From positions 1 through 64,000 of IMG/VR virus record IMGVR_UViG_3300036799_000108: a DNA stretch of 64,000 nt; one strand, written 5' to 3'. Each line of letters opens with the position of its first letter. Position 1 is the first letter of the stretch. A program made the translations under genes and the position numbers. Origin of the DNA: a virus. Of the stretch, positions 1 through 7,959 are shown one piece after another. Under the pieces are notes generated by a model. That model saw only the letters and a program-made list of their open reading frames with translations. It searched no databases and was not told the DNA's origin.

Positions 1-154
1 ACCAGCCCTGCCCTGCCAGCCTCGGGCCAGCCCTGCCCTGCCCTGCCCTGCCCTGCCCTGCCCTGCCAGCCCTGACCAGCCCTGCCCTGCCAGCCCTGCC
101 CTGCCAGCCTCGGGCCAGCCCTGCCCTGCCCTGCCCTGCCCTGCCCTGCCCTGC
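1..154. repeat. CCCTG minisatellite at left edge
   Basis: The window opens with runs of the pentamer CCCTG interrupted by CCAGCC and CCTCGGGCCAGCC. A larger unit starting CCAGCCTCGGGCCAG occurs at 16 and again at 104, so there is a higher-order period of 88 bp. The pentamer is not a multiple of three and no gene start lies here, so this is not protein-coding. It may be a true repeat or a place where an assembly ended. Confidence 0.9.
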
Positions 155-389
155 GGGCGCCGAGCACGCCGCGCCGATCGCTTTGCGCCGAACGCTGCGC
201 CGCCGCACCCGCACGCGGAACGATACGCTGTCCGAGCGATGATCGTTGCGACGCCGACGACGACGAACGAGGCGTCAGCGTCACGCCGCGCCAAGGCGCT
301 CACCGAACCACCACCACGCACTAAGCGGACGCCACGCCATCAGCCGAGCGCCTGGCACCATCGCCGAGTTAGCAGCGAGTCCGCACGCG
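155..389. other. Non-coding stretch before the 17-bp repeats
   Basis: I see no supported gene in this GC-rich stretch. Reading frames are open in several phases because of base composition, but none has a ribosome binding site or a recognisable protein. From about 340 onward, fragments such as AGCAGCGAGTCCGCACGCG resemble the repeat that becomes clear at 390, so the array may begin earlier in degenerate form. Confidence 0.6.
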
Positions 390-558
390 GTCAGCTTCCG
401 CACCCGTCATGCTTCGACACCGGGTTGGTTTGGGCACTGGGTCAGCTTCGACACACGGTCGGACTCGGCACCCGTCAGCGCTCGGAACCCGTCATGCTTC
501 GACACCACTTAGCGCTCGACACCAGTTGGCGCTCGACACCGGTCCGTCAGCGCTCGAA
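390..558. repeat. Iteron-like array of ten ~17-bp repeats
   Basis: Units begin at 390, 406, 424, 441, 458, 474, 491, 509, 525 and 542, giving spacings of 16, 18, 17, 17, 16, 17, 18, 16 and 17. The approximate consensus is GTCAGCGCTCGACACCC, with the core CTCGACACC best conserved. Because 17 is not a multiple of three, the repeat passes through all reading frames, which argues for a DNA- or RNA-level role rather than a protein repeat. Arrays with this period are typical of iterons bound by replication initiators, but no initiator is shown to bind here. Confidence 0.8.
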
Positions 559-561
559 AGG

Positions 562-597
562 CGGCACATGGAAACTACGCACCATTTCGATGTGCCG
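562..597. repeat. Inverted repeat beside the 17-bp array
   Basis: CGGCACAT at 562-569 is repeated in inverted orientation as ATGTGCCG at 590-597, separated by 20 bp. It lies four bases beyond the last 17-bp repeat. It could be an operator or a replication-origin hairpin. Downstream, 598-703 has a C-rich tract and a run of seven T at about 653-659 but no gene I can support. Confidence 0.6.
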
Positions 598-703
598 GAT
601 GCCCCCCTTCTGGCACCCGTCCACCTGCACGCTCCCCCACCCGCTCCCCCAGGATTTTTTTACGCTCCCCGGCTCGCCCCTCCTGGCGTCCGGAACGTTT
701 CTG

Positions 704-712
704 TGGTATAAC
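704..712 (+). promoter_or_regulatory. Extended -10 promoter-like site
   Basis: TGGTATAAC combines a TG-n extension with the -10 hexamer TATAAC, one mismatch from TATAAT. It lies 46 bp before the ATG of the first gene. The -35 position has only a weak match (TGGCGT), as expected for an extended -10 promoter. Confidence 0.45.
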
Positions 713-757
713 ATCCTAGAGCATGGCAATTCAGCCACGCGGAACACGAGACGCACG

Positions 758-1312
758 ATGCGTTACGCAAAGACAGCCAAGGGCAGCGGTAAGCTATTGC
801 TCGCGATGGCGGCCGCTGGTCTGAAGATCACGCCTTCCAACGTGAGCGAACTCGGTTGGGGCCTGTTCTTCTCCGAAGACGCGGTTGATATACCGGACGA
901 ATTCAAGGCGGCGCTCAGCCAGCTCCACCAGGAGGTGTTGGCGATCGCGCCACCGCAGCCTGTGGCCAAGGTGAAGCAGCCTTCGGCAGAGTGGAGCGCG
1001 GCAGCAACGAACCCTCGGTCAGAGGCGGCTTCTGGATCGCTGCATGACCGTATCCGCACACCGCATAGGCCAAGCGGCAAGGTGATGCCACGGCCACGCT
1101 GGTCGGAGGATGAGAAGCCGCTAGGCGGATGGGATAACGGCACGGTGCGCGTGAGAGAGCGCAAGGTCAGCAAGCCCAAGCAGCGCAAGCCAGAGCAGCC
1201 AGCGCCAGGCCCGATCATGCCACCGCTTGATCCCAAGATTGCGGCGATCATGGCGGCAATGATGAAGCCTACCAAGAAGACGAAGGTGAAGCGACGCATA
1301 GTGCGTTACTGA
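758..1312 (+). CDS. Basic hypothetical protein, first gene of the rightward left arm
   Basis: This encodes 184 residues with no family I recognise. The N-terminal 70 residues look globular and partly helical. The C-terminal half is rich in proline, lysine and arginine and ends in a strongly basic tail (KPTKKTKVKRRIVRY), which suggests nucleic-acid binding by charge alone. The frame stays open upstream to 239, but that part runs through the 17-bp repeats and has no protein character, so I chose the ATG at 758. A promoter-like site lies 46 bp upstream, and the first structured leader (1314-1412) follows its stop codon. Confidence 0.65.
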   Translation: MRYAKTAKGSGKLLLAMAAAGLKITPSNVSELGWGLFFSEDAVDIPDEFKAALSQLHQEVLAIAPPQPVAKVKQPSAEWSAAATNPRSEAASGSLHDRIRTPHRPSGKVMPRPRWSEDEKPLGGWDNGTVRVRERKVSKPKQRKPEQPAPGPIMPPLDPKIAAIMAAMMKPTKKTKVKRRIVRY

Positions 1313-1313
1313 T

Positions 1314-1412
1314 CGCAGGCATGGGGATGCACCGCTGATGCGGTGCGTCTCTATGCGGTAGCGAACCGCAGAACCAGCGCGATCCAGCGCCGGTCAACCT
1401 CCAATTCTGGAG
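1314..1412 (+). promoter_or_regulatory. Structured leader A (three hairpins plus SD hairpin)
   Basis: Hairpin 1 (1319-1356) pairs 17 consecutive bases around the loop TGAT. Hairpin 2 is GCGGT/ACCGC at 1355-1369, sharing two bases with the foot of hairpin 1. The linker AGAA at 1370-1373 follows, then hairpin 3 (1374-1393) with stem GCGC/GCGC, an A-C mismatch and the 6-nt loop GATCCA. A last small hairpin CTCCA/TGGAG at 1399-1412 contains the GGAG ribosome binding site of the next gene. The same order recurs at 1894, 2252 and 5750, and part of it at 3615. Confidence 0.7.
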
Positions 1413-1419
1413 AACGACA

Positions 1420-1653
1420 ATGGACTTAGTGAGCGAAAAGGTTGTGCATTGGATGAGCGAGATCCCAACGCACTGCCAACTGAGCGGCCGCAAGATCACC
1501 AAGCGGTTCGTTGATGGTCGTGCGCCGGGCCGCAGCTCATGGGCCTGTATGCATCCCGACTACTTCCGCCAGATCGGCGGTAATCTCGGCACGGGTAATG
1601 GCCAACTCTACGTGCGCCAGGACGACGGCCGTTGGCTCAAGACGGAGGGCTGA
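1420..1653 (+). CDS. Small phage protein with CxLSGRxI motif
   Basis: A 77-residue protein of unknown function. The central segment (CQLSGRKITKRFVDG, then WACMHPDYFRQIG) reads like a compact conserved phage fold with a Gly- and Asp-rich end. It starts at ATG 1420, eight bases after a GGAG that sits in a small hairpin, so translation may be controlled by that structure. The next gene begins three bases after its stop, making a coupled pair. I do not recognise the family. Confidence 0.75.
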   Translation: MDLVSEKVVHWMSEIPTHCQLSGRKITKRFVDGRAPGRSSWACMHPDYFRQIGGNLGTGNGQLYVRQDDGRWLKTEG

Positions 1654-1655
1654 CG

Positions 1656-1868
1656 ATGCCGACATCATGGGCACCGGAGGTCTTCGTCGATGGCAAGTGG
1701 TCGCGGAACGGGGTGCGGTTCGCCACGGAGAAGGAGGCGTTGTCCAACGCCTCCGACCTGATGAGCCGATGGTTCCTGGTCGAGAAATACCGCGCCACGG
1801 AAGCCGATGATCCGGTCAACTATCGCTGGGACGCGGCCCTTGGCCTTGTCTCGACGCAGACGGCCTAA
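1656..1868 (+). CDS. Hypothetical protein, 70 aa
   Basis: A small protein of unknown function. It reads like a single beta-alpha domain: an N-terminal strand segment (EVFVDGKWSRNGVRFAT), a helix (EKEALSNASDLMSRWFLVEKY) and a C-terminal strand. The ATG at 1656 follows an AGGG-type ribosome binding site in the end of the previous gene. A TTG at 1632 would add eight residues inside that gene and is less likely. It closes the first two-gene block. Confidence 0.7.
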   Translation: MPTSWAPEVFVDGKWSRNGVRFATEKEALSNASDLMSRWFLVEKYRATEADDPVNYRWDAALGLVSTQTA

Positions 1869-1893
1869 CCGGCTCGAGCAGTCGCAAGACTGA

Positions 1894-1985
1894 ACGCCGG
1901 CATGGGGATGCAGCGTGGGGTTATGCCATTTCCTCACGCTGCATCTCTATGCACGACGTGTGCAGAACGGTTCGCAACTCAGCGA
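1894..1985 (+). promoter_or_regulatory. Structured leader B (three hairpins)
   Basis: Hairpin 1 (1900-1952) is a 21-bp stem with an 11-nt loop; its lower half is the same GCATGGGGA/TCTCTATGC pairing as in leader A, and its upper half differs but is compensated. Hairpin 2 is GCAC/GTGC at 1951-1963. AGAA follows at 1964-1967, then hairpin 3 with TCGC/GCGA around the 6-nt loop AACTCA (1972-1985). The lipoprotein gene at 2013 lies downstream, with AGGAG in between. Confidence 0.7.
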
Positions 1986-2012
1986 GCCGGGAACCAGGAG
2001 CTTCGATATAAA

Positions 2013-2238
2013 ATGTCTACACGCCTCAAATACGCGGCCCTTGCGGTTGTCGTTAGCCTCACGGCCTGCGCTGCTCCAAGCCAGCCGTTCCTCGACCAGG
2101 CCCGCATCGAATGCGGTTACGGCAGTCAGAGCGCATGCCAGCGCGTCAGCGGCCTGCGCGATCGCGGCTGGTGCGGCCGCCGGATACTCAGCCAGCCAGC
2201 CAACCTACGTGGTCTGCCGCGGTTGGTCTTGCTGGTAA
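2013..2238 (+). pseudogene. Small lipoprotein with an apparent frameshift
   Basis: The reading frame from ATG 2013 starts with a lipoprotein signal (lysine, hydrophobic core, lipobox LTAC with the cysteine at about residue 18) and continues to about 2150. After that the frame turns into unlikely sequence that runs through the next leader. The frame shifted by +1 instead gives a sensible end (AIAAGAAAGY then PTYVVCRGWSCW) with a stop at 2238. A one-base insertion, a sequencing error near 2150-2165, or programmed +1 shifting would all explain this. Its product would be an outer-membrane-directed lipoprotein; spanin-like function is possible but unproven. Confidence 0.55.
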
Positions 2239-2251
2239 GCCGATCTGACTT

Positions 2252-2328
2252 ATACGCCGGGCAGCGGTCGCGAGGCCGCTGCCTCGGTATGCGTCAGACA
2301 ACGCAGAACGGCAACAATTCCGTTGCCG
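2252..2328 (+). promoter_or_regulatory. Structured leader C (three hairpins)
   Basis: Hairpin 1 (2252-2290) has stem ATA-CCG-GGCAGCGG paired with CCGCTGCC-CGG-TAT, a bulged CG on the 5' side and a bulged T on the 3' side. Hairpin 2 is GCGT/ACGC at 2291-2304. AGAA is at 2305-2308. Hairpin 3 is CGGCAAC/GTTGCCG around the 6-nt loop AATTCC (2309-2328). The next start codon is at 2344. Hairpins 1 and 3 differ in sequence from the other copies but keep perfect pairing. Confidence 0.75.
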
Positions 2329-2343
2329 TAGACGGAAGCAATC

Positions 2344-2538
2344 ATGCAAAACGTCATACATCGAGTAACCGGATCGAAGCTCACGATTGAGGTCGATCTG
2401 TCGTCCAAGGCGCTCTCTGCGGCGGTGCCGTCATCGACCGGCAAGACGATGCTGCTCGCCAGCACGAACGGCAAGGTGGAGCTGCCGCCGATCAACGGCC
2501 GGGCGGTCAGCTTCGCGCTCAACGTCATGCTGAAGTGA
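2344..2538 (+). CDS. Hypothetical protein, 64 aa
   Basis: A short, mostly beta-stranded protein (segments KLTIEVDLS, TMLLASTNGKVELP, VSFALNVML) without a recognised family. It begins at ATG 2344, 15 bases after hairpin 3 of leader C, with GGAAG as a weak ribosome binding site. Seven bases separate it from the next gene, so both are probably expressed together. Function unknown. Confidence 0.65.
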   Translation: MQNVIHRVTGSKLTIEVDLSSKALSAAVPSSTGKTMLLASTNGKVELPPINGRAVSFALNVMLK

Positions 2539-2545
2539 GGGCGAT

Positions 2546-2950
2546 ATGCATAAGATCGTCATCACGGACCCGGTGCGGCTTCGAGCCGCCATCGAGTTTG
2601 CGCAGGATCAGGGATGCCTCGAACAGTTTGGCGCTGATCTGTGCCATCTGCTGCAAGTGCTGACCGCCGACATGATCCGCTATCCCGAGAGGGGTGGCGA
2701 GATCACTGCGGCCGTGGGTAGTTACACCGCCGAGATCCATGCCGACTGGGCGCCATACTCGTTCGGCTTCGCTATCTGGAACATGACGGGGGAAAGCGAG
2801 AAAAGCCGGTCGAACCTCGTGCTGCATGGCGGTTGGATTTATTCCGGCCCTGACGTGCCGAGCGACGGCAGCTTCGCTTCGCTGACGGTCAATCTGCCAG
2901 ATGTCATGGGGCAGTCGCGGCCAACGCACACATGGCGGTGTCACACGTAA
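2546..2950 (+). CDS. Hypothetical protein, 134 aa
   Basis: An acidic, soluble-looking protein with an N-terminal helical part (RLRAAIEFAQDQGCLEQFG) and a later aromatic, beta-rich part (APYSFGFAIWNM, GGWIYSGPD). No catalytic motif is evident and I do not recognise the family. It starts at ATG 2546 and its TAA stop shares the A of the next gene's ATG, indicating translational coupling. Confidence 0.7.
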   Translation: MHKIVITDPVRLRAAIEFAQDQGCLEQFGADLCHLLQVLTADMIRYPERGGEITAAVGSYTAEIHADWAPYSFGFAIWNMTGESEKSRSNLVLHGGWIYSGPDVPSDGSFASLTVNLPDVMGQSRPTHTWRCHT

Positions 2951-3213
2951 TGGCCAAGCCACTGACGATCACAGGCTTGGCGCCAGTTCGCAGGACGGCG
3001 CCGGGTCTGTCTCGACATGAGCAGATCGTCCTCGAGGTTGTCTGCCGGTTTCCGAACCGGCGGGCGATCACCGATCGGATCGATGGCGAACGGCAGATGA
3101 CGCGGGCGGATTGGAGTGCTGCCCGCGCGTCGCTGATCGGCAAACGGCTTTTGAACGCGGCGGGCGAGATCACCCTCGCCGGTCGCGTGATCGTGGGAGA
3201 CACCACATGCTGA
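2950..3213 (+). CDS. Possible winged-helix protein, 87 aa
   Basis: The sequence from residue 17 reads like a small winged helix: helix one (RHEQIVLEVVCRFP), a putative recognition segment (MTRADWSAARASLIGKRLL) and a hairpin (GEITLAGRVIVG). This suggests DNA binding, but no close family is recognised. ATG 2950 overlaps the previous stop (TAATG), so I prefer it to a GTG/ATG further upstream. It overlaps the start of the next gene by seven bases. Confidence 0.65.
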   Translation: MAKPLTITGLAPVRRTAPGLSRHEQIVLEVVCRFPNRRAITDRIDGERQMTRADWSAARASLIGKRLLNAAGEITLAGRVIVGDTTC

Positions 3214-3599
3214 AACCGGGCGCACTCGAACTCGGGCTGGCACAGTTCACCGGCACCGAGCAATGGACCCGTCATGCTTTGGCATCGAACATGCTGATGA
3301 CAGACGGCGTCCTGTATCTACGTGAGAATGCGGATTGCTACTGGCTGGTCGATGCCATCGCATCCTACGTCGCCCACTCCCCCGAGCTGAAAGGGGAGCA
3401 CTTCCAGGCATGGACGTTTGAGCGCGTTCATGAGGTGACGAAACCGCACCTGCTCTACGTCACGGACGGCAACGGCGACAAGCGGCTTATCACGCAGGAG
3501 ATCGACTACAGCGACTTCCCGTTGCCGAAGATCACGCTCTGGGCGGTCTACGACGGAGGCTTCAAAGCCTTCGTCTTAATGCTGCCGAGCGAATACTAG
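3207..3599 (+). CDS. DUF6876 family protein
   Basis: A 130-residue protein that matches my recollection of the DUF6876 family: an early FTGTEQWTRH motif, then TDGVLYLRENADCYWLVDAIAS, a DGNGD turn, a DFPL motif near residue 106 and the terminal LPSEY. Members are small proteins of unknown function found in phages and mobile elements. It starts inside the previous gene (ATG 3207) and is followed by a structured intergenic region at 3602-3663. Confidence 0.7.
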   Translation: MLKPGALELGLAQFTGTEQWTRHALASNMLMTDGVLYLRENADCYWLVDAIASYVAHSPELKGEHFQAWTFERVHEVTKPHLLYVTDGNGDKRLITQEIDYSDFPLPKITLWAVYDGGFKAFVLMLPSEY

Positions 3600-3614
3600 A
3601 GAGGAGCTGACGAC

Positions 3615-3653
3615 CAGCAGCGCAATCCCGCGCCGCTGTCTCCAACCCTGGAG
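3615..3653 (+). promoter_or_regulatory. Partial structured leader F
   Basis: This copy keeps hairpin 3 and the Shine-Dalgarno hairpin of leader A. Hairpin 3 (3615-3638) is CAGC-A-GCGC paired with GCGC-C-GCTG around the loop AATCCC, with the A-C mismatch in the same place as in leader A. CTCCA/TGGAG at 3640-3653 again contains the GGAG before the next ATG at 3664. Hairpins 1 and 2 and the AGAA linker are absent. Confidence 0.65.
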
Positions 3654-3663
3654 TGCTATCGAC

Positions 3664-4083
3664 ATGAGACGGAAAGGTACGCTGACGAACGTCCAAACCG
3701 GGCGTCCGTTCTCGGTGACCGTTCATCACAGCGACGACGGCTGGCAGGCCAAAGCCATCCGTGCAACCGCGGGCACGCGCTTCGGCATGATGCTGCTGTC
3801 CGCGTTGGGCCTCGAGCCAGACCACCCTCCGAGCTGCGGCAGGCCGTGTGTGACGTCGGACGGCTTCCTGATCGGCCACTACGTCGGCCGTGATGGCGAA
3901 AGCCACATGGGCGCGATGCTGGGCGATGTGTCCGACCTGGAGGCCAACATCATGGGCTTCCCGAAGCACATCCACATGACGCCGGCGGAGAGGAAGGACT
4001 TCTACGCCATGTGGCGCAAGTGGATCGCGGATGACTGTCGCTCGCCACCCGGTCTGCGGCTAGACGATGGGAGGACGCGATGA
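3664..4083 (+). CDS. Hypothetical protein, 139 aa
   Basis: A soluble protein of unknown function with a beta-rich N-terminus (KGTLTNVQTGRPFSVTVH), a central SCGRPCVTSDGFLIGHY segment and a C-terminal helical part (TPAERKDFYAMWRKWIADD). The pair of cysteines could bind metal but the spacing is not a standard zinc ribbon. It leads a block of overlapping genes (next start at 4080 inside its end), and leader F precedes it. Confidence 0.7.
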   Translation: MRRKGTLTNVQTGRPFSVTVHHSDDGWQAKAIRATAGTRFGMMLLSALGLEPDHPPSCGRPCVTSDGFLIGHYVGRDGESHMGAMLGDVSDLEANIMGFPKHIHMTPAERKDFYAMWRKWIADDCRSPPGLRLDDGRTR

Positions 4084-4442
4084 AGCGCACCCTCATCATC
4101 ACCATCGAGACAACCGGCGAGGACACCTACCGCACGATGGAGGCCGCCGAGGAGGCGGTGCTGGATAACTGCGACGCCATCGCCAACAGCTATCAGGGCT
4201 GCTCAGTGAACGCCGAGATCTGCGTTGAGGCTATGGCGGACGCGCTGATCTCCGAGCTTTGCAACACAGGCAATGGGAGGACAATCCAAGACGCCCTCGA
4301 GCGCGCATGGTCGCATGTTCACCGATCCCTGGAGATTGCTGAAGGGGACGAGGACCCGCCCGAGGACATTGATGGTATGCGCTCTGACCTGGAGGCAATC
4401 GAGACGGCACAGAAACTCCTCATCGAGGAGCAAACGCCATGA
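4080..4442 (+). CDS. Hypothetical acidic protein, 120 aa
   Basis: A mostly helical acidic protein (about one fifth Asp/Glu) with repeated EAxE-type segments and a C-terminal DPPEDIDGMRSDLEAIETA helix. No family recognised. ATG 4080 overlaps the previous stop by the ATGA arrangement, and its own stop overlaps the next start in the same way, so it sits inside a tightly coupled block. Confidence 0.7.
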   Translation: MKRTLIITIETTGEDTYRTMEAAEEAVLDNCDAIANSYQGCSVNAEICVEAMADALISELCNTGNGRTIQDALERAWSHVHRSLEIAEGDEDPPEDIDGMRSDLEAIETAQKLLIEEQTP

Positions 4443-4627
4443 GCGATGATTGGTGGCAATGCCGGTGTGGCTCTGGTCAATCCAAGCGCGCCCTCTACGA
4501 CGCCAGGGGCATCTTCTGCACATACATCTGTGACGACTGCGAGCAGGAGAAGCGTAAGGAGTTCCGCGCCGAGATCTTCACGGACGGCAATTACGACCAC
4601 GACGAGCCAATCGAGGAGGATGAGTGA
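4439..4627 (+). CDS. Small zinc-ribbon-like protein, 62 aa
   Basis: Cysteines at residues 8 and 10 (CRCGSG) and a second cluster (CTYICDDCEQEKRKEF) suggest a metal-binding knuckle followed by a charged helix and an acidic tail. Such small zinc proteins are common in phage early regions and often bind nucleic acid or RNA polymerase, but nothing here shows a specific partner. It overlaps both neighbours by four bases. Confidence 0.7.
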   Translation: MSDDWWQCRCGSGQSKRALYDARGIFCTYICDDCEQEKRKEFRAEIFTDGNYDHDEPIEEDE

Positions 4628-4833
4628 TGGCCAGGAGAGACATCGCCAAGGGCGTCGCTGACACGGACAGGAGGCTCCTGTTCCTGCGCAACGAGGTCAC
4701 GAAGTTCCTTTGCGACAAGTTCAAGTTTGAGGACGTTGGGGGCGGCTTTGGTTTAGGCCAAGCCGATGTTGATCTGGAGACCCCGGACGGCTTCACCGTG
4801 AATGTGTCGATCTGCATTCTGGAGGACGAGTGA
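4627..4833 (+). CDS. Hypothetical protein, 68 aa
   Basis: A small protein with an N-terminal basic helix (MARRDIAKGVADTDRRLLFLRNEV) and a C-terminal beta portion (TPDGFTVNVSICILEDE). Unknown family. I start it at ATG 4627, which touches the previous TGA (TGATG), rather than at the GTG three bases upstream. The next gene begins on its own stop codon. Confidence 0.65.
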   Translation: MARRDIAKGVADTDRRLLFLRNEVTKFLCDKFKFEDVGGGFGLGQADVDLETPDGFTVNVSICILEDE

Positions 4834-5003
4834 TGGACGATGATGACGAACTGGTCGCCATGATCCCGATCACGGAGACGGAAGCGAAGGTGCTGTGGCA
4901 ACTGCTGTTCAACGCCAGCAGCGACACAGTGGTCGAGCTGACCGCAGACGTGGCCGAAAGCTTACTGGGTAAGCTTCGCCATGCACACTTCGAGGAACGC
5001 TGA
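4833..5003 (+). CDS. Hypothetical acidic protein, 56 aa
   Basis: A very short reading frame that begins on the stop codon of the preceding gene (TGATG) and ends one base before the next ATG, which fits the coupled arrangement of this block. It starts MDDDDELVAMIPITETEA and continues as a helical protein ending LLGKLRHAHFEER. The tight packing is the main evidence that it is real. Function unknown. Confidence 0.6.
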   Translation: MDDDDELVAMIPITETEAKVLWQLLFNASSDTVVELTADVAESLLGKLRHAHFEER

Positions 5004-5004
5004 G

Positions 5005-5448
5005 ATGGCCACATGGCACCAGATGCAGGCGCGCAAGCGTCCTGGGTTCAAGCTCTACCACGAGACGATGTGGTCAGTGCTGTATGATCCGCCGAATGAG
5101 ATGGCGAGCATCATGCTGTTCGCCACATACAGGGAAGCGCAGGCGTATCGCAGCAGGTTTTCGCCTGATCGCTCGGATCACACCATGATCCTGCGGCCGG
5201 CGAAGCTGATCTGGGTTGAAGTCGATGAAGCTCGCTATGACGAAATGCTCAACATCCTGCCGCCAGCGATCTGGATCGAATACGGCTTCATGGTGGGTGA
5301 GCCGTGGGACCACGGCCCCGACGGTCGGCCAAGGTTCCCGACATTCGTCAAGCTGCGCGGCCACTACTACGAGGCCACGCTGCCGATGACCGTCGGTGAG
5401 TTTAAGGCACTCGATCTAAGCACCGTCGGAAGGAAGGAGGAGCTATGA
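5005..5448 (+). CDS. Hypothetical protein, 147 aa
   Basis: An aromatic-rich soluble protein (KRPGFKLYHETMWSVLYDPP, LILRPAKLIWVEV-like strands, WIEYGFMVGEPWDHG). It looks like an alpha/beta domain but I recognise no family. ATG 5005 follows the previous stop by one base; the earlier ATG at 4981 lies inside that gene. Its end overlaps the next start by four bases. Confidence 0.7.
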   Translation: MATWHQMQARKRPGFKLYHETMWSVLYDPPNEMASIMLFATYREAQAYRSRFSPDRSDHTMILRPAKLIWVEVDEARYDEMLNILPPAIWIEYGFMVGEPWDHGPDGRPRFPTFVKLRGHYYEATLPMTVGEFKALDLSTVGRKEEL

Positions 5449-5747
5449 CAGAGCAGGAGCTTGGGCCCGAACCGTGCGTGCCGAACAATGGCATCTCGAC
5501 CCTGAGTTGGAGGTATCGCGCTGCACTCGCTGCCTGGACGTTATGGTGTGCGAAATGCGCTGTCCTTCGCTTCTCAGCACTGACGGACTCAGTCGAGATA
5601 TGGGCCTTCCATGTCGCTGCCGAGGAGGTGCGCACCCAAGCCGGCGACGATGCAGCTACCGAGTTCTTCATGGCGGCCTTCCCGCCCAACTCTGAAGCGA
5701 GGGCAGCAGCAATGCGACCGCTCTCGCCAAGACACGAAGATCCCTGA
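5445..5747 (+). CDS. Hypothetical protein, 100 aa, uncertain frame
   Basis: The frame from ATG 5445 overlaps the preceding gene by four bases and has a good ribosome binding site (AAGGAGG), so its start is convincing. In the interior the alternative frame also looks protein-like, with WHLDPELEV followed by a cysteine cluster (CTRCLDVMVCEMRC) at about 5489-5560, while the later part (DDAATEFFMAAF) is best in the first frame. Either the zinc-like cluster is chance or a pair of shifts occurred. It ends just before leader D. Confidence 0.5.
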   Translation: MTEQELGPEPCVPNNGISTLSWRYRAALAAWTLWCAKCAVLRFSALTDSVEIWAFHVAAEEVRTQAGDDAATEFFMAAFPPNSEARAAAMRPLSPRHEDP

Positions 5748-5749
5748 CC

Positions 5750-5827
5750 CATACGCCGGGAGCCTGCATCACGCAGGCTCCTTGGTATGCGTCCAGGCGC
5801 AGAACGTTCGCCAATCCCGGTCGGACG
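5750..5827 (+). promoter_or_regulatory. Structured leader D (three hairpins)
   Basis: Hairpin 1 (5751-5788) has the same bulge plan as leader C (5' CG bulge, 3' T bulge) but a different, fully compensated stem (GGAGCCTGC/GCAGGCTCC). Hairpin 2 is GCGT/GCGC at 5789-5800. AGAA lies at 5801-5804. Hairpin 3 (5805-5827) is CGTTCG-CC paired with GG-CGGACG around the loop AATCCC. It precedes the clamp-like gene, whose AGGAG site and ATG follow at 5838-5849. Confidence 0.75.
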
Positions 5828-5848
5828 TAGCTCACTTAGGAGCCTCTT

Positions 5849-6940
5849 ATGGCAACCCAAAAGCGCAAACGAGCGCAAGCACTGAATGCTGTCGTGCCTG
5901 CGAAGCAGCAGGCTAACGGCGGCGGCGATAAGCCTGAACCCAAGGTCGAACTGATGGCCATCCCTGCCGCTCTGTTGCTCGCGGCTGAGACCATCACGGC
6001 CAAGGCGCCGAAGGATCGGACTGACCTGCAAGGCGTCCTGCTGCACCAGAAAGACACTGGTGTCGCCAGGATCGTGGCGGCTGATGGCTTCCGCTACTTC
6101 ATCGGTTCGTTCGAGGCAAAGCCTGCACCCTCGTGGCTCAAGGGCGGCATCATGGTGTCGCGTGAAGCCCTGAAGGCGCGCGTCAACATGCTGGTGAAGG
6201 TGGCAGAGACGCAGATCGTTGTGCTGGCCTACGCCAAGGGCGCAAGCACCCTGACCATGATGGACGTGGGCAGGACGATGGAGTTCAAAGTCCCGGCCGC
6301 GGAGGTGAAGGAGCTGCCCGACTACGAGCAGAACATCCAGGTCAAGACCTTCGCTGACATGAACGACGAAGCTGGCGGGATAGCAGCCCGCCCTGAGTGG
6401 GAGCCGGTCGGTTTCAACTCGCGACACATGAAGGATGTGGGCGACATCGCCAGGATCCTCGAGGGTGGCATGGACAAGCGGCTTCGCGAGAAGAACGGCA
6501 TGACCATCCGGGTGTTCGACCAGGGCAACGTGAATGCGCCGCGCATCTTCGACTTCCAGGGCTGGGATGGCGCGATCCTGATTGTCGGCGCGATGGCTCT
6601 CCCAACGTCACAGTTGCCGCTGCTGACGGCCAAGGTGCTCGCGCCGGCGGTCAGAGGCACGGTGGCTGCGCTGAGAGCCCATGCCACGCGCTGGATCGAT
6701 GCGGCGGCGGAAGCCACGACGGAAGACCAGAAGGTCGCCTGTCTCGCCAAGGCCGAGGACTTCCAGCGGCGCGTGGCGGCTGTCCTCGAACGGGCACCGG
6801 AGAAGACGGCGATCGCCGGCCCCATCGCGGGCACGGACAAGCTGGAAGCCCCGGATGAGCCACTGACAACGGGCGAGAAGTCGGCTGCGACGAAGCGGAA
6901 GCGTGCGGCCGCCAGGGCGGCGGCGGTGGTGCTGCACTGA
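5849..6940 (+). CDS. Sliding-clamp-like protein (putative)
   Basis: A 363-residue soluble protein. Residues about 60-85 (DLQGVLLHQKDTGVARIVAA then DGFRYF) resemble the first-domain pattern of bacterial beta clamps, where a GV.L sequence is followed by ATDGHRL. Residues about 190-250 (FNSRHMKDVGDIARIL, later RVFDQGNVNAPRIF) resemble the last clamp domain. The C-terminal 100 residues are helical and basic and are not part of a clamp. If correct it would tether a polymerase, but no polymerase gene lies in this window, so a host polymerase would be the partner. The similarity is by eye and weak. Confidence 0.55.
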   Translation: MATQKRKRAQALNAVVPAKQQANGGGDKPEPKVELMAIPAALLLAAETITAKAPKDRTDLQGVLLHQKDTGVARIVAADGFRYFIGSFEAKPAPSWLKGGIMVSREALKARVNMLVKVAETQIVVLAYAKGASTLTMMDVGRTMEFKVPAAEVKELPDYEQNIQVKTFADMNDEAGGIAARPEWEPVGFNSRHMKDVGDIARILEGGMDKRLREKNGMTIRVFDQGNVNAPRIFDFQGWDGAILIVGAMALPTSQLPLLTAKVLAPAVRGTVAALRAHATRWIDAAAEATTEDQKVACLAKAEDFQRRVAAVLERAPEKTAIAGPIAGTDKLEAPDEPLTTGEKSAATKRKRAAARAAAVVLH

Positions 6941-6945
6941 GCGGA

Positions 6946-7063
6946 GCGGCCTGGCGTGGTCTGGGGAGTAGCCAGACCACGCCTGCCGCCAGCTTGCGCC
7001 AGCGCGTCACGGTGCAAAGCGCGACGGTCCTACACGGACAGTGCATTATAGGGCGTAAAGCCC
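6946..7063 (+). promoter_or_regulatory. Structured leader E (four hairpins)
   Basis: Hairpin 1 (6946-6989) pairs GCGGC and then GGCGTGGTCTGG with their complements, 17 bp in total, with CT opposite T as an internal bulge. Next are TTGCGCC/GGTGCAA (6994-7017), GTCC/GGAC (7027-7039) and GGGC/GCCC (7051-7063). It lacks the AGAA linker and the AATCCC-type loop, so it is a relative in layout only. The DUF5131 gene starts at 7075. Confidence 0.55.
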
Positions 7064-7074
7064 GAGAGGGGACC

Positions 7075-7959
7075 ATGACCGTTATCGGAACGGGTATCTC
7101 GTGGACGAACAGCACCTGGGGCCTGGCGGTTGGCTGCCACAAGGTCTCGGACGGATGTAAAAACTGCTACGCCGAGGGACTGGTTAACCGTCTCAGCAGC
7201 TTCGGCCAGCGGTTCGATGAGGTGAAGCTGAAGCTCGATCGGCTTGATCACGTCAGGAAGTTTCGACCTATCGTCGGGCCTGACGGACTGTTACCGCACA
7301 TGGTCTTCGTGAATTCCATGTCCGATTTCTGGCACGATGCGATACCGGAAGAAGCCATCTCGCAGATCCTGGACGTGATGGAGGCTCATCCCTTCGTTGT
7401 GTTCCAGATCCTCACGAAACGCCCAATCCGGGCACGGCGCATCCTGACCGCGCGCTACGGTGGCAAGGGCATACCGCGTCACATCTGGATCGGCGTCAGC
7501 ACAGAGGACAACCGGGTCGCGAAGCGGCTCGACATCATGCGGACGATCAAGGAGCGGTGCGGCGGCGGGACGTTCTTCGTGTCGGTGGAACCCATCATCG
7601 GACCAACGAACGAACTGGACTTTGCCGGGATGGATTGGGTGATCACTGGCGGCGAGAGCGGTCCCGGTGCACGACGAATGGAACGGCAATGGCTGATAGA
7701 TGCCGTCCACAGGTCGCAATGGCATCGCGCGGCGCTGTGGCACAAGCAATCCGGCACAGTGCCGAGCCATCCCAACATCGACCGGGCGCCCACTCGGCTC
7801 AAGCCCGGCGACAGGTTCCGCTGGCTCCGCGACAACGGCTGGGAAGTGCTGCCGCACGAGAAAGGCGGCGCCACGATCGATCGGCAGACCTACCGCGAAC
7901 TGCCTCGCGCCTACCACGAGATCAAGGAGGCGATGAACGCAAACCTGTTAAGTGCCTAA
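7075..7959 (+). CDS. DUF5131 (phage Gp37/Gp68) family protein
   Basis: A 294-residue protein that matches the DUF5131 pattern: ISWTNSTWGLAVGCHKVSDG near the start, three cysteines (GCHKVSDGCKNCYAE), FVNSMSDFWH around residue 77, a LTKRP segment and WVITGGESGPGARRM around residue 190. Members resemble radical-SAM-like proteins and are frequent in phages and mobile islands; their reaction is unknown to me. The ATG at 7075 has GAGAGGGG upstream. The upstream in-frame extension covers leader E and is rejected. Confidence 0.85.
   Translation: MTVIGTGISWTNSTWGLAVGCHKVSDGCKNCYAEGLVNRLSSFGQRFDEVKLKLDRLDHVRKFRPIVGPDGLLPHMVFVNSMSDFWHDAIPEEAISQILDVMEAHPFVVFQILTKRPIRARRILTARYGGKGIPRHIWIGVSTEDNRVAKRLDIMRTIKERCGGGTFFVSVEPIIGPTNELDFAGMDWVITGGESGPGARRMERQWLIDAVHRSQWHRAALWHKQSGTVPSHPNIDRAPTRLKPGDRFRWLRDNGWEVLPHEKGGATIDRQTYRELPRAYHEIKEAMNANLLSA

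Follow-up and report, generated by a model that had tools for sequence, protein, structure and literature searches.

A Repeated Intercistronic RNA Element with Two Alternative Folds in the Early Operon of an Uncultivated Phage

The early operon of an uncultivated phage is divided by a repeated RNA element with two mutually exclusive folds. Both alternative pairings of the strand on which the folds compete, the 3' strand of the hairpin 1 base, are conserved by compensation. At about an even chance, the copies are RNA elements that act in cis within the polycistronic early mRNA, each as a putative intercistronic processing site. The window, which is the whole stretch of DNA that was analyzed, comprises bases 1-64000 of a virus record of 69,648 bases in total. 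The predicted portal, HK97-type head and tape-measure proteins mark its owner as a tailed phage, and the head protein has its best identity, 50-55%, to Mesorhizobium, Klebsiella, Sinorhizobium and D3-like Pseudomonas phages.

Copies in the Early Operon

The copies lie at the left end of the window in the plus-strand early operon, which runs from about 758 to 6940 (Table 1). They occupy every wide gap between early genes, in the sense direction and between the upstream stop and the next start, and the other gene junctions of the operon overlap or are a few nucleotides apart, as judged from the ORFs. Gene starts were picked by eye or with a simple script. The stop of the gene before copy 3 is not placed because the only open frame from the ATG at 2013 continues through copy 3 to 2390. 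This lipoprotein-like ORF (MSTRLKYAALAVVVSLTACAAPSQ...) crosses copy 3 into the next gene, through natural overlap, decay of the gene or a frameshift in the assembly. A consensus scan found no promoter-like sites in the early region (500-7200) and no promoter or intrinsic terminator belonging to the window copies; terminator-like sites in 500-7200 were no more frequent than in shuffles. Short G+C-rich tandem repeats are present at the contig start or end in the window (1-170, with CCCTG) and in two related contigs (L007, 1-130; L089, 1-130). These repeats stand by the early operon in all three and may mark an assembly break point.

Table 1. Positions of the RNA copies and of the early operon in the window
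Feature	Position	Strand	Parts	Basis and R1 score
Copy 1	1319..1394	+	hairpin 1 1319-1356; hairpin 2 1354-1370; AGAA 1370-1373; hairpin 3 1373-1394, loop GATCCA 1381-1386, A-C mismatch	folds; 43.9 bits (training sequence)
Copy 2	1900..1989	+	hairpin 1 1900-1952; hairpin 2 1950-1964; AGAA 1964-1967; hairpin 3 1968-1989, loop AACTCA	folds; 39.7 bits (training sequence)
Copy 3	2244..2329	+	basal extension TCTGAC/GTCAGA, 2244-2249 with 2293-2298; hairpin 1 2251-2291 (internal loop); hairpin 2 2290-2305; AGAA 2305-2308; hairpin 3 2308-2329, loop AATTCC	folds; 44.9 bits (training sequence)
Partial copy	3615..3638	+	hairpin 3 only, loop AATCCC	sequence
Copy 4	5746..5828	+	basal extension GAC/GTC, 5746-5748 with 5791-5793, takes in part of upstream stop TGA 5745-5747; hairpin 1 5750-5789 (internal loop); hairpin 2 5788-5801; AGAA 5801-5804; hairpin 3 5804-5828, loop AATCCC	folds; 33 bits (training sequence)
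Early operon, split into gene blocks by the copies	758..6940	+	758-1312 / 1420-1653, 1656-1868 / 2013-? / 2344-3599 / (partial copy) 3664-5747 / 5849-6940	ORFs

The original prediction described four intergenic leaders, each with a long hairpin 1, a small hairpin 2 ending in GC, an AGAA linker and a hairpin 3 with a six-nucleotide loop. All four were found in full on the plus strand with the predicted hexaloops, and they fold 3.9 to 6.0 standard deviations below shuffles. The AGAA letters are likewise present in all four; however, the outer A's can pair, so the free linker is only GA. A U-A pair closes hairpin 2 in all copies, and an A-U pair closes hairpin 3 in most. At the proposed fifth site, 3615, hairpin 3 and the A-C mismatch of copy 1, four pairs below the loop, are present; hairpin 1, hairpin 2 and AGAA are missing, and the fold is no better than that of shuffles (z -1.1). 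A strict descriptor consisting of hairpin 1, hairpin 2, AGAA and hairpin 3 with a 6-nt loop matched three of the four full copies and one minus-strand position in the 69.6 kb record, compared with a mean of 0.23 and a maximum of 1 in 100 dinucleotide shuffles. Copy 4, with its bulged hairpin 3, was missed.

Across the window family, the hexaloop size, the GCAGA of hairpin 2 and linker, and a position 10-25 nt before the Shine-Dalgarno site are kept, and the second loop position is A in 9 of 11 copies. In some copies, but not in others, this loop could pair with the Shine-Dalgarno site (UCCA/UGGA, UUCC/GGAA), and the idea was set aside by judgement.

Relatives and Covariation

The RusA-like gene as the sole query found no relatives. 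A neighboring gene product led to a 68,060-b relative (G001; L007) at 73% identity, and the DUF6876 protein (PF21781) led to one of 69,580 b (G002; L089). Both have the gene order of the window phage and keep the structures. In G001, full copies lie near 2819, 3836 and 5741, with a fourth at 1380 in which hairpin 3 is doubled, and G002 has copies at about 1605, 3017 and 5639. Copies preceding the orthologues of genes 1420, 2344 and 5849 are present in all three phages. The L007 copy at 3836 is preceded by a gene that is absent from that place in the window, which indicates that copies can accompany inserted genes.

A covariance model of hairpin 2-AGAA-hairpin 3 (R1) found 11 copies and no other convincing match in the whole records and 97 other loci; the scores of the 11 are high by construction because they are the training set. 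In the model-fitted alignment of these copies, 79.7% of cells are paired compared with 67.8% after shuffling, and 21 cells are changed on both sides compared with 8.8. None of 500 shuffles, which leave the kinship among the sequences in place, reached either value, and all slid registers were far lower. All 55 cells of hairpin 2 are paired, with three pairs invariant and two compensated, and G-U pairs are conserved in hairpin 1. The claim of a selected RNA structure is thus supported by covariation in homologues, in this family as in the second one and its flanks, and by retention in related phages with the same gene order, the two points on which the original prediction said that it could fail.

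The isolate phage collection contained no near DNA relatives of the window phage, and Rfam returned no match at gathering thresholds and only weak, chance-level matches at permissive E. Pattern matches in L121, L122, L123, L126 and L127 were rejected as chance by sequence and score, as was an R1 match in L220, located in an apparent coding region. Another pattern match (L125), at a contig start, is an element-like candidate. Leaders that neither model finds precede orthologues of window genes 5849 and 2344 in L008 (832-905) and L009 (8945-9020). They seem to have a strand common to two hairpins (ACGUC; CAAGC-AUCCC-GCUUG) and are possibly diverged or intermediate forms.

Two Mutually Exclusive Folds

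The 5' flank of hairpin 1 adjoins or includes the upstream stop codon, and hairpin 1 can be extended by pairing between this flank and the hairpin 2 5' half (TCTGAC/GTCAGA, CGTTG/CAACG, CTG/CAG, GAAG/TTTC). The extended hairpin 1 and hairpin 2 are mutually exclusive. Hairpins 1 and 2 do occur in the predicted order, but in 10 of 11 copies free folding favors the extended hairpin 1, with an advantage of 2 to 7 kcal/mol over the hairpin 2 fold. Matched flanks gave -10.1 kcal/mol compared with -7.8 ± 0.8 kcal/mol for swapped flanks (p 0.002). With its basal extension, hairpin 1 comprises 17-30 bp in the window family; copies 3 and 4 contain an internal loop, and the lower stem of copies 1 and 2 is perfect. 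When the RNA is cut in silico at the internal loop position, the downstream piece opens with hairpin 2 in 10 of 11 copies, compared with 30% after shuffling.

A Second Family with the Same Plan

Another phage record with a DUF6876 gene (L100) has its own repeated leader of the same plan. A pattern derived from it matched 22 stretches, about 20 viral contigs and Bradyrhizobium genomes; Oxalicibacterium and a Sorangium bin gave one match each, apparently by chance. The consensus of this family 2 is UGACG-UUUCG-ACA-CUGCG..CGCAG-CA-CGAAG-CGCC. Next comes an overlapping hairpin, GAAGC..GCUUC, in which CGAAGC is used again, and after it the Shine-Dalgarno site and the ATG. Family 2 has no separate hairpin 3. 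None of the papers in the library that was searched contains TTTCGACACTGCG, and the isolate phage collection contained no family 2 element.

In a plain MAFFT alignment of 20 copies, 92.6% of cells are paired and 42 are changed on both sides, compared with 16.2. The flanks beyond UUUCG are paired at 169 of 220 positions compared with 119 ± 5 by permutation, or at 102 of 136 compared with 74 ± 3.9 when only unique flank pairs are counted. The basal stem has a U-G pair in 17 of the 20 copies, and the upstream stop lies within it, mostly 5-8 nt before UUUCG. An A-C mismatch often falls at the A of the UGA stop (for example, L148 2820-2881), where one C to U change would pair. The helix spans 21.0 ± 1.5 positions, the internal loop is 3x2 in 47 of 55 copies, and the upper stem is mostly 8-11 bp with varying letters. 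Downstream pieces taken from the internal loop open with a local hairpin in 85% of cases, compared with 19% when the downstream sequence is shuffled.

One 20-kb fragment carries about ten family 2 copies, with genes and elements alternating in runs. A match was present in 12 of 196 Bradyrhizobium genomes, and no more came from 347 further genomes sampled evenly across the order, which suggests that family 2 resides on mobile rather than core DNA. One of the sites is a prophage region of Bradyrhizobium elkanii, with five copies on NZ_AXAP01000015 of strain WSM2783. Five second-lineage carriers (G006, G007, G008, G009 and G012; e.g. L212, L214, L217) have a common protein family beginning RRMLLARERIARRTPFFASLIF; four of them encode an ATPase-like family (VMIKGPTGVGKSAVINTE) nearby, and they have no portal family in common with the group of the window phage. 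The covariance models R1 and R2 gave no convincing match to each other's members. The two families are treated as one plan, with homology unproven.

Proposed Role as a Processing Site

Among the roles offered in the original prediction, a processing site is the best match to the anatomy. Together, hairpin 1 and its basal extension make up a helix of about two turns, which contains an internal loop in family 2 and in some members of the window family. The 3' side would be cut at this loop by an endonuclease, most likely the RNase III of the host, leaving the upper stem on the 3' end of the upstream mRNA as a protective hairpin. The freed strand would refold so that the new 5' end opens with hairpin 2, after which come GA and hairpin 3 in the window family, and the next gene block would gain its own structured 5' end and ribosome site. 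The conserved conflict of folds would then correspond to the structures before and after the cut. If processing is true, the gene blocks would be kept as separate messages inside one operon.

The T7 early precursor of about 7,000 nt is cut by RNase III at five sites into mono- and dicistronic mRNAs (PMC4858673), and the T7 R1.1 site, a hairpin of 60 nt, has a 4/5 internal loop (PMC6121014). Compared with the E. coli enzyme, Sinorhizobium RNase III requires longer dsRNA, and its cuts in R1.1 fall at atypical places (PMC6121014), so a helix of 21 bp may be a poor substrate in a rhizobial host. Five window-family copies of the CATGGGG type, which have a perfect lower stem without the internal loop, also argue against processing, as does the lack of mutual recognition between the covariance models of the two families. 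In addition, hairpin 3, its loop and the GA linker are left unexplained by cutting.

Alternative Explanations

One alternative is an operator for an RNA-binding protein. A phage or host protein that binds hairpin 3, or hairpin 2-GA-hairpin 3, could place the gene blocks under joint translational control, and the kept hexaloop size, GCAGA and spacing to the Shine-Dalgarno site are consistent with this, as are the doubling of hairpin 3 in one L007 copy and its solitary occurrence at 3615. The protein-binding leader of the original prediction survives as a candidate, above all for hairpin 3. It is nevertheless considered unlikely: family 2 has no separate hairpin 3, and an operator does not account for the fixed helix length and the exclusive folds. 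No protein family is common to all carriers of either family (blastp E 1e-6), which favors a host factor, although the binder may be a diverged phage protein. The exclusive folds, both conserved, would be explained by a translation-coupled switch, in which a ribosome finishing the upstream gene would cover the 5' strand of the extended hairpin 1, so that hairpin 2 could form and turn on the next gene; without the ribosome, the other fold would form. The stop codon in the basal stem points the same way. However, predicted Shine-Dalgarno accessibility is 0.46 compared with 0.47 in the two states (54 elements; 4 change each way), so a switch that masks this site is unsupported, and translational coupling is rather improbable.

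Antitermination or anti-polarity of the put type, in which the RNA acts on RNA polymerase or excludes Rho from untranslated gaps and thereby lets transcription reach the end of the operon, is judged distinctly improbable. Adjacent hairpins on the sense strand only of an early operon resemble such a system, and Rho could load at the wide untranslated gaps. The likeness raised in the original prediction proved weak: the copies are at junctions along the operon rather than promoter-proximal only, each lies between a stop and the next start, there are up to about ten per phage, and terminator-like sites do not exceed shuffle frequency. That inverted repeats recur directly upstream of genes would also be expected of DNA-level repressor or promoter sites, as proposed for the mycobacteriophage ESAS repeats, whose authors favor DNA-binding sites (PMC3203893). 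This explanation is hardly probable at all, since the stems stay paired although their letters are free, hairpin 1 and the basal stem of family 2 conserve G-U pairs, the copies are sense-oriented and lie between stop and start, and the early region has no promoter-like sites.

Significance

Gene insertion enlarges phage operons, and it is poorly understood how an inserted gene retains separate expression in a common transcript. The element is new to Rfam and reaches about ten copies per phage fragment. It is possible, although this is proposed only tentatively, that it represents a new class of cis-acting RNA in phages, intercistronic and with two states, in which the basal stem includes the preceding stop codon and the 3' strand is common to a second hairpin before the next gene. 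Such a class would comprise at least two sequence families, carried by alphaproteobacterial phages that are unrelated; it would tie the end of a gene to how the following gene is processed or expressed, and would travel with inserted genes. A repeated RNA module that separates gene blocks, and perhaps cuts and caps the messages, would be a general answer, with a natural parallel in T7.

Comparison with Known Systems

HK022 put RNA consists of neighboring hairpins with a short linker in phage early transcripts, and its action in cis on RNA polymerase allows terminators to be read through. The present element is likened to it by plan and differs in having many copies at gene junctions, with no terminator context found. 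A separate observation concerns L094 (IMGVR_UViG_3300050821_004792), where a repeated box, CTCGAGGTGCG or similar, surrounds the Shine-Dalgarno site before several start codons (~5700-6570); it resembles start-associated sequences and is unrelated to the hairpins.

The ESAS of cluster K mycobacteriophages are also inverted repeats that recur in front of many early or non-structural genes, can move from gene to gene and are carried by related phages. ESAS are 17-bp inverted repeats by a 13-bp GGGATAGGAGCCC box, which is absent from the leader regions examined here, whereas the present stems vary in length. According to the ESAS authors, changes in ESAS do not preserve RNA pairing (PMC3203893); in contrast, pairing here is preserved by compensation.

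The T7 R sites differ from the element in sequence, and cutting of the present element is a prediction. Furthermore, in the present element the 3' strand of the hairpin base is common to a second hairpin, the 5' strand is at the upstream stop codon, and the window family has the extra GA and hairpin 3. An asymmetric internal loop gives a likeness in part, since family 2 and window copies 3 and 4 have the loop and window copies 1 and 2 lack it. The fuller likenesses are a helix of about two turns in both families and repetition between the genes of one early operon, with five sites in about 7 kb in T7 and four to five in about 6 kb in the window.
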